NCBI GenBank assembly: GCA_947629575.1
Contig: CANREF010000006.1
Span: 1 to 64,000, forward strand
Direction: 5' to 3'
DNA: 64,000 bases
Origin: an uncultured Clostridia bacterium
GTDB taxonomy: Bacteria > Bacillota > Clostridia > Christensenellales > Borkfalkiaceae
Part shown: positions 6,187 to 55,881 of the stretch, in pieces
How the letters are laid out: every line of letters starts with the position of its first letter
Position numbering within the stretch: the stretch's first letter is position 1
Program-made: the position numbers and the translations under genes
The notes under the pieces: generated by a model
Databases searched by the model: none
Told to the model about the DNA's origin: nothing
What the model saw: only the letters and a program-made list of their open reading frames with translations

Positions 6187-6930
6187 TCAATTCTCTTCCT
6201 TAGATTCCGAAGTCTGTTCGGGAGAGGACTCGCTCTTTTTGCGTTTGGGAAGGACAATGGCGATCAATTTTTCAAGCACCTTTGTCTTGGCAAGGACATA
6301 GAGGGCGATCGTGGCGATCGCACAATCGGCAGGGATATACACAAGTTGATAGATCAATGAATAGATGAAGGCGTTTGAAACCGCCCAGCCGGGGAGAGTT
6401 ACCCATATTGCACCTTCCGCAAAGTAAATAAAACCGGAAATAAGGTGGAACAGGAAGCGGAGCAGATAAACGCCGATCGTTCCGAGCACCACATTGAAGG
6501 TTGTCTTTTTGGTAAATTTTCGCGCGATCCCCATAAAGCCGATCGAGGCAAACGCGAGCAGATAATCGAGAATAAAGGTAAACGGGGTAAGGATATACGG
6601 ACCTGAAATGAAATTCAGAAGTCCGAATATCGTTCCTGCAAGCAAACCGTCGACCACCCCATAGGCGTATGCGTAGATAAGAACGGGCACAAAGCTCGCC
6701 AATGTGATAGAACCGCCATAGGTGACGGGAGAGATCTTGATAAACGACAGCGCGAAAGAAAGCGCCAACGTCAGTCCCGCGGCGGCGATGTGTTTTGCGT
6801 CGTACGATCTTCTTCCTTTGATGCAGATCACGGCGATCACACCAAGGAGCAGGAAGACTGCCCCGAGAGAGATCCATTTCACCACATCGGTGGTGTGTTC
6901 GCTCGCTTCGAGCAAAGAGTTGAGTAACAT
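6187..6930 (-). CDS. thiT: ThiT-like ECF transporter S-component (thiamine)
   Basis: Six-TM-like MLLNSLLEAS...AAGLTLALSFALSFIKI...GGSITLASFVPVLIYAYAYG...GLLAGTIFGLLNFI. SD ggagg 8 nt upstream of the internal ATG at 6930; upstream TPP riboswitch. Confidence 0.88.
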   Translation of the reverse strand: MLLNSLLEASEHTTDVVKWISLGAVFLLLGVIAVICIKGRRSYDAKHIAAAGLTLALSFALSFIKISPVTYGGSITLASFVPVLIYAYAYGVVDGLLAGTIFGLLNFISGPYILTPFTFILDYLLAFASIGFMGIARKFTKKTTFNVVLGTIGVYLLRFLFHLISGFIYFAEGAIWVTLPGWAVSNAFIYSLIYQLVYIPADCAIATIALYVLAKTKVLEKLIAIVLPKRKKSESSPEQTSESKEEN

Positions 6931-7000: not shown

Positions 7001-7011
7001 GAAAACTCCTT

Positions 7012-7100
7012 CGGAAAATCCTGTCTTTCGTTCAAGTATTACCTTGTCCGATTCGAATGGTATGATCTCAGCCTTTTTGGGGCACCCACGACGGATAATT
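7012..7100 (-). ncRNA. TPP riboswitch (THI element)
   Basis: Minus strand gtgggtgccccaaaaaggCTGAGAtcataccattcGAAtcggacaaGGTAATACttGAACGAAAG matches the THI-box core (GGGTGC..GGCTGAGA...ACC..GAAC.TGA..GGTAATACC). Confidence 0.85.
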
Positions 7101-7160: not shown

Positions 7161-8825
7161 TTATTTTGTCTCCGAAAGGGAGTCGGCGAGGGGCTCGGTG
7201 AGGAGCGTTTTATAGTCGGTATAGATCACCGCGCCCGCCTTTGCCTTCGGCGGTTTCTTCACATGCTTGATCTCGCAATAGTCTACGGGAACTTTCCCGC
7301 CGCCCTTGGCGTCCGAATAACGGGCGCAGAGCCCCGCCGCGAACAGGAGAACATGTTCGGGCGTTTTGCGTCCCTTTGTCTCGATCACGACGTGGCAGGA
7401 ATGATACTTCTGCGTGTGCAGCCATATGTCCCCGGGCGCGCTCGTGCGGATCAGACGGTCGTTTTGCAGATTATTTCTCCCCGCGCGGACGGTGAAACCG
7501 TCCTTTTCATATACGCGGAAGGGGATCTCGGGGCTCTTCTTGCGCGCCTTCTCCTTGGGAGCGCTCAAGATCTGCGCCGCGAGCAGTTCCTCTTCGAGCG
7601 ATCTCAGATCTTCCTCCTCCGAAGCCGCTTCGCACGCCGCGATCAAACTTAAAGTATATTCGAGTTCGGCGTCCGTCGCGCGCTCCTGCGGCGCAAGGAT
7701 CTCAAGCGCGCGCTTTTGTTTCCGATACCGTTTGAAGTAATTCTGCGCATTTTGAGAGGGGGAAAGGGTCTCATCGAGGGAGATCTTGAGCGTTCCTCCC
7801 TCTTCATCATAATAATTGCAGACCTCGCAGGACTTCATCCCCCGTCTGAGCGCATAGAGGTTGGCGGTGAGAAGTTCCCCCTTGATGCGGTTTTCCTCCA
7901 ATGAGGCGCATTCCCGCTGCTTGTCCCTGATTTGCGCGAGCCGCTTTTCCTGCTTCTTGCGCAGGGCGGAGAGGGCGGAAAGCAACCTGCGCTTTCCCCC
8001 CTCGAAGCGCTTGCGGGCGCGGCGGTTCGCATAGAAATAGCTCTGCGCCTCGCTGAGGGTGGGAAATGGAATTCCCCCCGCGACCGAGCGTGCAAAAAAA
8101 TCGGTGACGTTCCCCTCTTTTTCGGTCACGCAAGGGGAAATTTCATCCGAAAAGATATAGTTGTAAACGTGCTCGGAGAGGTCTCCCCCGCGATAGGCGG
8201 AGAGGATCTGTTCCGCCGTGCAGGGAGCGAGACCGCTGACGTGCAAAAAGAGGAAGCGGGCAAGATCGCCCTCGGGCGGAGAGGAGAGCAGAGCGCGGAG
8301 CGCGGACTTGTCGGAGGGGTCTGTCTTGTCCTGCGGGGAGGGCAGAACGTACTTCGCCCCCGGCAGAATGGCGCGCTTGCAGTTCTCGTCGAGCGAGGTC
8401 GTCTTCAGTGCGCCGAGGATCGTGCCGCATTCGGTGAGGATGAGGTTGGAGTACTTGCCCATGATCTCACAGCGGAGTTCCCGCACCGTCTCGGAGAAGT
8501 CCGAAAAGCACTTCAAACGGAAGACGAGGATGCGCTCGAAGCCGTCTAAAGAGACGTCTAAAATTTCCGCGCCCGAAAGGTGCTTGCGCAGGAGCATACA
8601 GAAATTGGGGGCGACGAGGGGATTTTCCCTGTCGTCCTCGGTAAAATAAGCGCCGCAGTCGGAGGCATTTGCATTCACGGTGAGTTTCAAAGTGCGCTTC
8701 CCCGTGTATATAATGAGAGCGAGTTCCTCCTTCTCGGGCTGGTTGATGCGGTTGATCTTCCCCCCGCGCAGCGCTTCATTCAGTTCCTTTGCGATGAGGC
8801 GGAGGGTAAAGGTATCCTGTGGCAT
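7161..8825 (-). CDS. rqcH: RqcH/NFACT (FbpA-like) ribosome quality control factor
   Basis: N-terminal MPQDTFTLRLIAKELNEALRGGKINRINQPEKEELALIIYT; coiled coil; C-terminal RNA-binding IWLHTQKYHSCHVVIETKGRKTPEHVLLFAAGLCARYSDAKGGGKVPVDYCEIKHVKKPPKAKAG. Confidence 0.93.
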   Translation of the reverse strand: MPQDTFTLRLIAKELNEALRGGKINRINQPEKEELALIIYTGKRTLKLTVNANASDCGAYFTEDDRENPLVAPNFCMLLRKHLSGAEILDVSLDGFERILVFRLKCFSDFSETVRELRCEIMGKYSNLILTECGTILGALKTTSLDENCKRAILPGAKYVLPSPQDKTDPSDKSALRALLSSPPEGDLARFLFLHVSGLAPCTAEQILSAYRGGDLSEHVYNYIFSDEISPCVTEKEGNVTDFFARSVAGGIPFPTLSEAQSYFYANRRARKRFEGGKRRLLSALSALRKKQEKRLAQIRDKQRECASLEENRIKGELLTANLYALRRGMKSCEVCNYYDEEGGTLKISLDETLSPSQNAQNYFKRYRKQKRALEILAPQERATDAELEYTLSLIAACEAASEEEDLRSLEEELLAAQILSAPKEKARKKSPEIPFRVYEKDGFTVRAGRNNLQNDRLIRTSAPGDIWLHTQKYHSCHVVIETKGRKTPEHVLLFAAGLCARYSDAKGGGKVPVDYCEIKHVKKPPKAKAGAVIYTDYKTLLTEPLADSLSETK

Positions 8826-8831
8826 ACCCCC

Positions 8832-8860
8832 ATTATAAACCAACCGCCGCGTTTTGTAAA
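8832..8860 (-). promoter_or_regulatory. Promoter of rqcH (TTTACA-17-TATAAT-N6-ATG)
   Basis: Revcomp: TTTACAaaacgcggcggttggttTATAATgggggtATG. Confidence 0.75.
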
Positions 8861-9044
8861 GAAAAACGCGCAGCTTTCCGCCGCCTGCCCAAAAACGCCG
8901 CCCCCCGCTGAGGAGCGGAACAAAAGAGAGAAAATCAAAAAGATGTGCCGTCGGGCTTAAAAATCGCTTTTCTTTTTGACGGCAATATGTTAAAATGTAA
9001 TTTGCGAAATTTTGGCGAAGAAAAATTTTTCAGGAGAATCGGAT

Positions 9045-10349
9045 ATGAAATACGAAGTAAAACCCGCAGAAAAGAGCACAGTCAAGATCACGATCAACTT
9101 CTCTTCGGAGGAGTGGGCGGAGGCGAACAACAAGGCGTATGTGCAGAACAGGAGCAAGTACGCCGTCAACGGCTTCCGCAAGGGGAAAGTTCCCAAGCAC
9201 GTACTCGAGATGTACTACGGCAAGGGGCTCTTCTATGAGGACGCGCTCAATCTGCTCTATTTCGAGCACTATGAAAAGATCCTCGAAAAGGAGAAGGAGA
9301 ATTTCACCGCAGTGGGCGAGCCCTCCCTCTCCCTCGGCGACGATTTCTCGGAGGAGAACATCGTGCTCGTTGCCGACGTTCCCGTAAAACCCGACGTCAC
9401 GATCGGCAGCTACAAGGGTATAAAAATTCCCATGTATGAGTATACTGTTACGGACGCCGATGTGGAGAAGGAACTCGATTCCATCCGCGACCGCATGGCG
9501 GAAAAGGTGGAGGTTAGCGACCGTCCCGCCGCGGAGGGGGACACCGCCACCATCGACTTCGTGGGAAAGATCGACGGGGAAGTCTTCGAGGGCGGAAGCG
9601 CCGAGGGGCACGATCTCGTGCTCGGCTCTCACTCCTTTATCCCCGGGTTCGAGGAGGGGGTCGTGGGAATGAACATCGGCGAGACCAAGGACATTCCCGT
9701 CACCTTCCCCGAGGACTATCAGGCGGAGGCGCTCAAGGGGAAACCCGCCGTGTTCACGGTGACCCTTCATAAACTTGCGGGCAAGGTGCTTCCCGAGCTC
9801 AATCAGGAGTTTGCCAAAAAGATGGGCTCGGACAGCGTGGAGGCATATACCGCCAAGGTGAGAGAGCGGCTCGAAAAGAACGCCGCTACCCGCTCTTTGA
9901 ACGAGACGGAAAATTCCATTCTCACCGAGATCGCCAAGACCGCTTCCGCGGAGATCCCCGAGGTCATGATCGACCGCCAATGTGATGCGGCTCTCCAGCG
10001 CATGGAGTATGATCTCATGTATCAGGGCATCAAGCTCGACGATTATCTTTCCTATATCGGCTCTTCCCGCGAGGCATACAAGAAGAACTTTGAAGGGGAA
10101 GCAAGAAAGACCGTCCTGCACCAGCTCATCCTCGAAAAGCTCATCAAAGAGGAGAACATCACGGCGAGCGAGGAGGAGATCTCCGCAAAGGTCGCCGAAC
10201 AGGCGGAGAGCGTGGGCAAAGAGCCCGAGGAATACAGAAAGACGATGGATCCCCGTCAGCTCGACTACATCGAGAACGACATCAAGGTCACCAAACTCTT
10301 CGAGTTCCTCAAGGCAAACAACGAAATGGTTTCAGCGGAGGCAAAATAA
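9045..10349 (+). CDS. tig: Trigger factor
   Basis: [22 protein letters not shown] domain [45 protein letters not shown]; followed by clpP-clpX. Confidence 0.96.
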
Positions 10350-25226: not shown

Positions 25227-25243
25227 ATATGCTAAGTTTGCAA

Positions 25244-25266
25244 AAAAGGCGCATATGTGTTATAAT
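25244..25266 (+). promoter_or_regulatory. nth promoter, -10 placed 6 nt before ATG
   Basis: ttgcaa...TATAATgcgggtATG. Confidence 0.65.
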
Positions 25267-25272
25267 GCGGGT

Positions 25273-25917
25273 ATGGACAGAAATGCCGAAATTTTAAGTG
25301 AGCTCGAACGTCTTTACCCCGATGCAAAGCCCGCGCTCATGTTCAAGAGCCCATACGAGCTCTTAGTCGCGGTCGTTCTCTCCGCGCAGTGCACGGACGA
25401 GAGGGTGAATAAAGTGACCGCCGTTCTCTTCCAAAACTACAATACGCCCGAAAAAATGCTCACGCTCTCGCAGGAAGAACTCGAAAAATACATCTTCTCC
25501 TGCGGGTTTTATCATAACAAGGCGGCGCACATCCTGTCCGCTTCGCGCGACATTGTCGAAAAATTCCACGGACAAGTTCCCGACAATTTGGAGGACTTGC
25601 AGCAGCTCGCGGGCGTGGGCAGAAAGACTGCCAACGTCGTCTATGCGGTCGCGTTCGGCGGAGACGCGATCGCCGTCGATACGCATGTGTTCCGCGTTGC
25701 AAACAGAACGCAGCTCGCCTGCGGCAGCACTCCCGAAAAGGTGGAACAGGGTCTCATGAAAGTCATTCCCAAGGAGAAGTGGTCCAAGGCGCACCACCTT
25801 CTCATCTGGCACGGAAGAAAGGTCTGTCATTCCCAAAGACCCGACTGCGAACATTGTACGCTCAATAAGCTCTGTCCCTCGGCGTTCCGCTGCGGCACAA
25901 GGGAGAATAAAGCATGA
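25273..25917 (+). CDS. nth: Endonuclease III
   Basis: HhH LAGVGRKTANVVYAVAFGGDAIAVDTHVFRVANR; Fe-S cluster C-x6-C-x2-C-x5-C at the C-terminus. Confidence 0.96.
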   Translation: MDRNAEILSELERLYPDAKPALMFKSPYELLVAVVLSAQCTDERVNKVTAVLFQNYNTPEKMLTLSQEELEKYIFSCGFYHNKAAHILSASRDIVEKFHGQVPDNLEDLQQLAGVGRKTANVVYAVAFGGDAIAVDTHVFRVANRTQLACGSTPEKVEQGLMKVIPKEKWSKAHHLLIWHGRKVCHSQRPDCEHCTLNKLCPSAFRCGTRENKA

Positions 25918-34563: not shown

Positions 34564-34591
34564 TTGACTTTTCCCGTGTTTTTGTTATAAT
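34564..34591 (+). promoter_or_regulatory. Promoter of XRE-TM gene
   Basis: TTGACT-16-TATAAT-agagat-ATG. Confidence 0.7.
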
Positions 34592-34597
34592 AGAGAT

Positions 34598-35212
34598 ATG
34601 GAAGAAGATACTTTGGCGATCACCATAGGGAAAAATCTCACGCGGCTCAGAAAGCTCGCGAATATGACCCAGCTGGAACTTGCCGAAAAACTCAATTATT
34701 CGGACAAATCGGTGTCGAAGTGGGAGCAGGGGAACGGCATCCCCGACGTTCGCATCCTCATACGGCTCGCCGATCTCTTCGGGGTCACGCTCGACGACCT
34801 CGTGCATGAGCATACGGAAAAGGAGATCGTTCCCAAGAACACGAGGCTGCGCAACCGCATCATCATCACGATCTGTTCGGTGGGGCTGTGCTGGCTCGTT
34901 GCCGTGTGCTGTTTCGTGCTCCTGGGGCTCATCGGCCCTAATCTGCCCTACATGTGGCTCGCATTCCTGTTTGCAGTGCCCGCTTCGGCGACCGTAGTCG
35001 TGGTCTTCAGCACTATCTGGAACTGGAAATGGGCGCGCATCATCTCCATTTCCGTGCTCGTGTGGACGCTCATCGGTTGCGTCTATCTCATGATCTTTGC
35101 CATCACGGGCGGAACGCAGAATCTGTGGTATCTGTTCTTGATCGGCATCCCTCTGCAGGTGCTCACGCTCATCTTTTTCGCGTGGCACAAGGGCATCCGT
35201 TTCAGGAGGTGA
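34598..35212 (+). CDS. XRE HTH regulator fused to multiple TM helices
   Basis: GKNLTRLRKLANMTQLELAEKLNYSDKSVSKWEQGNGIPDVRILIRLADLFGVTLDDLV followed by about 4 hydrophobic helices. Confidence 0.88.
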   Translation: MEEDTLAITIGKNLTRLRKLANMTQLELAEKLNYSDKSVSKWEQGNGIPDVRILIRLADLFGVTLDDLVHEHTEKEIVPKNTRLRNRIIITICSVGLCWLVAVCCFVLLGLIGPNLPYMWLAFLFAVPASATVVVVFSTIWNWKWARIISISVLVWTLIGCVYLMIFAITGGTQNLWYLFLIGIPLQVLTLIFFAWHKGIRFRR

Positions 35213-54583: not shown

Positions 54584-54612
54584 TTTACTTTTGGGCGGGA
54601 ACGTGCTATAAT
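54584..54612 (+). promoter_or_regulatory. Helicase promoter, -10 placed 6 nt before ATG
   Basis: tttact-17-TATAATgggggcATG. Confidence 0.7.
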
Positions 54613-54618
54613 GGGGGC

Positions 54619-55881
54619 ATGGAAGAAAACGCGCTTACAGCTCCGCTCACGGCCGAGCAAGAGGAAGCATATTCGCTCATTGAAGAGTGGTTCGTGCACA
54701 CGGGGACGCAGATCTTCGTGCTGTGCGGCTATGCGGGCACGGGGAAGACTTACCTGCTCGACGCGGCGGTGCGGCGGCTGGGGCTGGTGGCGGGGGAGAG
54801 CGCGGTGTTCGTCACGCCCACGGGAAAGGCGTCATCCGTGCTCATCCGTTCGGGAACGCCCGCTTCCACCATACATAGCCTCATTTATGTGCGCGAAGAG
54901 GACATCGAAGTCAACGAAGACGGCGAGGTCATCTCCGAGCGCTTTTTGCGTTTCGTCAAACGGGAGAGCATTTCCAAGGAAATTCGCCTCATCGTGGTGG
55001 ACGAAACGAGCATGGTTTCCGATGAAACGCTGCGGGATCTTCTGTCGTTTGGGGTGAAGTGCCTCTTCTGCGGCGACCCCGCGCAACTGCCGCCGGTGGG
55101 GGGAAGCAATACCCTTTTGTCGATGCCCTGTTTCACCCTCACGCAGATCGTTCGGCAGGAAGAGCACAATCCCATCGTCCGTTTGGCGCAAATGGCGCGG
55201 GCGGGGGAGTTCATCGGCTACGGGGAATACGGGAAGGGCGTTGCGGTCGTGCCGCGGCGGGAGCTAAGGGAAGAGGAGCGCAGGGAACTCTTTCTGCGGG
55301 CGGATCAGGTGATCGTCGGCACGAACAGGACAAGAAATCTCATCAATGCGCGGATGCGGGCGTATAACGGCATTTCGCCCGAGGCGAAGCTGCCGCTCGA
55401 CGGCGAAAAGGTGATATGTACCCTCAATAATTGGAGCAGGGCCTTGGACAAGGCGGAAAATTTCCATTTGGTGAACGGGATCATCGGGACATGCAGTTAT
55501 GTCCGCGAGGACTTGGACGGGCTGGGGCGGTTGGATTTCAAGCCCGATTTCATGGAGGAACGGGTGCGGTCGCTGCCGTTTGATACGGGCATCTTTTTGG
55601 GGGAGAATTACAATCACCGATATGGGGAAAAGGCGTGTTTGCTTGAAAACGACATCATGGTCCACGAAAACAACTATGAGATGCTGCGCAGGTTCAAGGT
55701 GAAGCGGGAAGATACGATCAATCGTTTTGAGTTTGCGTATGCGGTGACGTGTCATAAAGCGCAGGGGTCGGAGTATGATTTTGTGGTAGTGGTAGACGAA
55801 TCGCGGCTATTTGAGAACGGTCGGGAATGGTTATACACGGCGGTGACGCGCGCCAAGAAGAAGCTATTGATTTTGAGGTAA
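54619..55881 (+). CDS. Superfamily 1B helicase-like ATPase (RecD2/Dda-like)
   Basis: CGYAGTGKTYLLDAAV (Walker A), IVVDETSMVSDETL, FCGDPAQLPPVGG, YAVTCHKAQGSEYD, WLYTAVTRAKKKLLIL. Confidence 0.88.
   Translation: MEENALTAPLTAEQEEAYSLIEEWFVHTGTQIFVLCGYAGTGKTYLLDAAVRRLGLVAGESAVFVTPTGKASSVLIRSGTPASTIHSLIYVREEDIEVNEDGEVISERFLRFVKRESISKEIRLIVVDETSMVSDETLRDLLSFGVKCLFCGDPAQLPPVGGSNTLLSMPCFTLTQIVRQEEHNPIVRLAQMARAGEFIGYGEYGKGVAVVPRRELREEERRELFLRADQVIVGTNRTRNLINARMRAYNGISPEAKLPLDGEKVICTLNNWSRALDKAENFHLVNGIIGTCSYVREDLDGLGRLDFKPDFMEERVRSLPFDTGIFLGENYNHRYGEKACLLENDIMVHENNYEMLRRFKVKREDTINRFEFAYAVTCHKAQGSEYDFVVVVDESRLFENGREWLYTAVTRAKKKLLILR

Follow-up and report, generated by a model that had tools for sequence, protein, structure and literature searches.

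The ribosome-rescue gene rqcH in the analysed stretch of 64,000 nucleotides (the window) is predicted to be leaderless, and sequence evidence bears this out to the extent that it can. Initiation on leaderless messages is an established route of translation, though a minority one. We regard it as very probable (roughly 0.88) that a sigma-A promoter close to the consensus drives the gene, that the rqcH mRNA begins with the A of the ATG start codon and that this leaderless message is read via its 5'-terminal AUG. The -10 box of this promoter and the start codon are separated by 6 bp; according to this reading, RNA polymerase would begin on base 7 downstream of TATAAT, the A of the rqcH ATG. The leaderless mRNA would have the sequence 5'-AUGCCACAGG... 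and, since it would start on AUG, could not carry a Shine-Dalgarno (SD) sequence. It would be translated by ribosomes recognising the 5'-terminal AUG and, as judged from the knowledge of leaderless mRNAs, independently of an SD. The leaderless state would be evolutionarily labile and, in some species of the genus, would have taken the place of a leader with an SD.

The gene (positions 7161..8825, minus strand) encodes an NFACT protein of 554 aa, in whose sequence Pfam detected both domains by which RqcH/NFACT proteins are recognised, NFACT_N (5.5e-100) and NFACT-R_1 (5.5e-11). Upstream of it on the minus strand, a -35 element TTTACA (8860-8855) and, at a distance of 17 bp, a -10 element TATAAT (8837-8832) were read from the sequence and by a promoter scan. 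They are followed by the discriminator GGGGGT (8831-8826), which has the pyrimidine at position 6 that was considered in the initiator calibration, and by the start codon ATG (8825-8823). The layout TTTACA-17-TATAAT-GGGGGT-ATG given in a preliminary description of this DNA was exactly matched at 8860-8823. With 11/12 consensus matches and a spacer of 17 bp, the promoter lies within the range of 16-18 bp that characterises sigma-70/sigma-A promoters, and the first T of its -10 box is positioned exactly at -12 from the start codon. No SD was found in range of the ATG at 8825; the run of G residues stops one base short of the start codon. Sequence together with conservation establishes the promoter with its spacing as well as the start codon.

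The start codon was examined by help of 80 fetched RqcH relatives. All of them (80/80) possess the MPQD N-terminus and align from query residue 1, thus beginning at the same codon, which is ATG in 78 relatives, GTG in one and TTG in one. The conserved RqcH N-terminus would be lost if the start were located downstream of 8825, and a start further downstream, named in the preliminary description as a result that would speak against a leaderless gene, is thus ruled out. Hence, by its conserved N-terminus, the ATG at 8825-8823 is to be taken as the authentic rqcH start. The divergent neighbour of rqcH is tig (9045..10349, plus strand), encoding trigger factor (Pfam Trigger_N, FKBP_C and Trigger_C), and the rqcH promoter sits in the 219-bp gap between the two genes. 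Just upstream of this promoter a terminator-like hairpin occurs (8918-8898, minus strand), without a gene close before it on the same strand. On the other side of rqcH, a TPP riboswitch-like aptamer (window positions 7009-7099, minus strand; Rfam RF00059, 41.7 bits, E 5.8e-07, below the gathering score of 54.3) is located directly upstream of a gene for a YuaJ-type thiamine transporter (6187-6930; Pfam Thia_YuaJ 7e-31), downstream of rqcH.

The transcription start site (TSS) at 8825 is an inference from promoter geometry and from the initiator preference of the genome itself. For calibration we used 82 intergenic TATAAT sequences of the same genome that have a -35 element and lack an ATG at a distance of 5-9. 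A pyrimidine-purine step was present at bases 6/7 after the -10 box in 43% of them, other steps reaching 9-30%. Likewise, among the leadered rqcH promoters of the genus this step was found at 6/7 in 21/40, the next best position giving 12. Since the step stands out at 6/7, base 7 after TATAAT is the preferred start. In rqcH, the 6/7 step consists of T followed by the A of ATG, so that, given the pyrimidine at discriminator position 6, the A at 8825 is the predicted first transcribed base. The leadered rqcH promoters of four genomes (G449, G450, G009 and G483) read TATAAT-N6-ATC, where a single substitution would create a 5'-terminal ATG; this may reflect the initiator A only.

A genome-wide count of TATAAT-N(5-8)-ATG had been proposed as a check. 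In the source genome (1.87 Mb, 38 contigs), TATAATN{5,8}ATG occurred 87 times versus 12 times for the reversed pattern used as control. A six-base spacer was present in 41/87 matches, 39/41 of which had a pyrimidine before the ATG; the narrower pattern TATAAT-N5-Y-ATG gave 39 matches versus two for the reversed control. Statistics on gene starts were obtained from a 724-kb sample of genome stretches (599 predicted genes) plus 20 short stretches. In the 599-gene sample, an exact TATAAT preceded in-frame ATG starts with spacers of 5, 6, 7, 8 and 9 bases in 1, 16, 2, 4 and 4 cases, respectively, peaking at spacer 6. Leaderless-type starts accounted for about 3% of the genes in the 724-kb sample and for about 4% when spacers of 7-9 were included. 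Roughly 40 leaderless genes are predicted in the genome, about 3-4% of its genes.

The properties of such sites were studied on 37 TATAAT-N6-ATG sites from stretches of the same genome, each heading an ORF of 60 codons or more (the N6 set). A -35 element with at least 4/6 matches lay at exactly 17 bp in 23/37 sites, at 16 bp in two and at 18 bp in three; as background, 2.8% of random hexamers and 6/106 TATAATs inside genes had such an element at 17 bp. A TGn motif preceded the -10 box in 14/37 sites, and 36/37 had C or T at -1. Only two of the 37 sites possessed an SD (35 were without), compared to 345/599 genes at large. Purines predominate in the six-base spacer from TATAAT to ATG, whose base 4 is G in 26/37 sites, and this spacer is richer in G than the corresponding bases of the genome's leadered promoters. 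A pattern search of the assembly for the 16S 3' end, intended to reveal its anti-SD, gave no match. The 5' end of rqcH is weakly folded (z +2.0). Reduced 5' structure was rejected as a trait of leaderless genes, as the set had a mean of -7.4 versus -6.6 kcal/mol for SD genes and thus was not less structured.

Within the window itself, TATAATN{5,8}ATG occurred four times versus a shuffled mean of 0.31, and none of 100 shuffles reached four. The spacer comprised exactly six bases in all four matches, and a start finder relying on coding potential, blind to promoters and SDs, picked exactly their ATGs. Besides rqcH, the arrangement was found on the plus strand as TATAAT-GCGGGT-ATG (25261..25275) at nth (CDS 25273-25917; -35 TTGCAA at 25238-25243, distance 17), as TATAAT-AGAGAT-ATG (34586..34600) at the XRE-TM gene (CDS 34598-35212; -35 TTGACT at 16 bp) and as TATAAT-GGGGGC-ATG (54607..54621) at a gene for an AAA_30/UvrD_C_2 helicase (CDS 54619-55881; -35 TTTACT at 54584-54589, distance 17). 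The nth product contains the HhH-GPD and HHH domains of endonuclease III (Pfam), and the XRE-TM product has an HTH_3 domain and about four hydrophobic stretches. At the helicase gene, the in-frame extension upstream of the ATG scored as non-coding. The recurrence of the spacing at nth, the XRE-TM gene and a RecD2/Dda-like gene, claimed in the preliminary description, was confirmed for all three, and the gene identities agree with the domains.

To trace the arrangement among relatives, 103 genomes of the genus were searched for an exact TATAAT located 4-34 bases before an ATG that starts MPQD. Fifty-four genomes qualified; of 56 matches, two second hits within a genome were left out. The distances were bimodal, being 6 nt in 13 genomes, 11 nt in one and 20-34 nt in 40, and an SD-like core was present in 39/40 of the leaders of 20-34 nt. 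The nearly empty gap between 6 and 20 is as expected if the transcript must either start on AUG or have room for an SD. In six relatives (L001-L004, L006 and L007) TTTACA-17-TATAAT-N6-ATG is kept and the surrounding DNA differs, while in L005 the distance from the promoter to the ATG is 15 bases longer. On the RqcH tree the leaderless state is clustered, requiring four changes versus a shuffled mean of 8.2, and 0/500 shuffles were as low. As this state is nested inside an otherwise SD-led group, leaderless rqcH is most likely derived within the genus, with at least one return to the leadered form (L005). Among more distant rqcH relatives (at most 54% identity), the leaderless arrangement was absent and an SD was present in most.

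Other readings of the rqcH start region were weighed against these data. The most serious of them, to which we give a small chance, is that the TSS lies a few bases off (base 5 or 8-9 after the -10 box) or is mixed, which would yield a leader of 1-3 nt or some transcripts lacking the A of AUG. Start selection by RNA polymerase spreads across neighbouring bases, and the genome does contain TATAAT-N7-9-ATG genes whose -35 boxes are good; against this, the sharp peak at spacer 6 and the nearly invariable pyrimidine at -1 fit a selection for starting exactly on A. In the sample, 11 genes (ORFs of at least 60 aa) belong to this N7-9 class, seven of them with the -35 box at 17; the expected leaders would be 0-3 nt long and also leave no room for an SD. 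Examples are G000:C1:41848-41864, C2:46938-46954 and C4:22216-22232, the last one UvrD/PcrA-like by its N-terminus. Several sites of this class read TATAATANNNNNGTATG. We rejected the notion that this sequence is a repeat element: the flanks of its four copies in the sample are unrelated to one another, three copies head ORFs and one precedes a short reading frame. Probably these copies are promoters that leave very short leaders.

It is much less likely that rqcH is mainly transcribed from another promoter further upstream and translated from a leadered mRNA, TATAAT-N6-ATG being secondary or due to chance. Many relatives have an SD-led rqcH, so the leadered form is viable. In the window, however, no SD was detected before 8825 and no further promoter-like site on the rqcH strand of the gap; the hairpin at 8918-8898 lies upstream of the promoter, and the position and sequence of the latter are conserved in at least six relatives. 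An upstream TSS with an SD-bearing leader had also been named beforehand as a result contradicting the prediction; this was tested in part, inasmuch as the rqcH TTTACA-N17-TATAAT is the sole promoter-like match within 8780-9080 and no SD accompanies it. We attach almost no weight to a true start at the in-frame TTG at 8843 or at a codon further downstream. The longest ORF does open at this TTG, but the codon falls between the -35 and -10 elements and has neither an SD nor conservation, and in all 80 relatives MPQD occupies the position of the ATG codon.

The arrangement extends beyond rqcH and beyond this genome. Across 13 genomes of the genus, TATAAT-N5-Y-ATG was found 543 times versus 15 for the control. 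In 1.5 Mb, one member of the genus (G003) showed 99 matches versus no control, exceeding its relatives two- to threefold, and is a candidate for far heavier leaderless use. In other families of the same order the pattern reached about 1 to 8 times the control in the rows tallied, and in a phylum sample the ratio of pattern to control was 1.14 over 85 of the genomes drawn. The TATAAT-N6-ATG habit is strong in the genus and present in several families of the order, and it is not general in the phylum at this spacing and consensus. A back-to-back pair of TATAAT-N6-ATG with the -10 boxes about 55 bp apart was noticed at G000:C4:53821-53904 (L110). This layout recurs in two further genomes of the genus (G004:C2:96120-96203 and G010:C6:39777-39861), and the three pairs possibly represent one conserved divergent leaderless pair.

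Among the N6 members outside the window, uvrC, recX and a nadD-like protein were scanned by Pfam; the remaining members were read from their N-termini. A functional theme suggested by nth, uvrC, recX and rqcH was not pressed, since by eye other members (mnmE, der, lysA, nadD, peptidases and regulators) resemble housekeeping or metabolic genes. We consider it unlikely that leaderless initiation serves a function, instead of being incidental, for rqcH and several DNA-repair genes (nth, uvrC, recX) of this lineage. If it did, initiation at a 5'-AUG would sustain the translation of ribosome-rescue and repair genes under impaired SD initiation, and natural leadered/leaderless pairs of one gene within the genus would allow such a role to be tested.

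For the Clostridia, in which initiation normally relies on an SD, the data provide one well-supported predicted leaderless gene together with a genus-wide set of such genes. The flip of rqcH between 6 nt and 20-34 nt among close relatives is a natural experiment on the gain and loss of leaders, and the set calls for caution in gene-start prediction, which would otherwise seek an SD. Our literature search found no work linking leaderless genes with Christensenellales; the works in which the words RqcH and leaderless occur together are, judged by title and abstract, on other subjects.

That 70S ribosomes initiate at 5'-terminal AUGs has been reviewed (PMC9031893). The closest counterparts are the TA-led genes, in which a TA-rich -10 box precedes the start by about 12 bp and which according to Zheng et al. 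(2011, PMC3160421) occur in 56/209 Firmicutes. As here, the first T of TATAAT lies about 12 bp before the start and there is no SD; the Firmicutes examples given there read TAtAAT, some with a preceding TG, comparable to the TGn in 14/37 of our sites. Different from that work, as far as its available parts extend, are the lineage, uncultured gut Clostridia without mention there whose nearest named relatives are Candidatus Borkfalkia, and the switch between leadered and leaderless rqcH documented within one genus. The same source gives a mean leaderless fraction of 4.2% of genes in Firmicutes (2.4-16.6); the 3-4% estimated here fall inside this range and far below Actinobacteria or Deinococcus-Thermus. 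Leaderless transcription is used by 21.6% of bacterial species (Lomsadze et al. 2018, GeneMarkS-2, as cited in PMC9581028), and as in the leaderless class outlined there, SD-led and leaderless genes are mixed in our genome, with the promoter motif just upstream of the starts. Clostridioides difficile, with 15 leaderless transcripts identified by TSS mapping (PMC7438776), likewise belongs to the Clostridia and has few of them; that set is experimental, whereas ours is predicted, more numerous and from a smaller genome. Altogether, the present genome agrees with the published leaderless figures and leaves the understanding of leaderless initiation as such unchanged.
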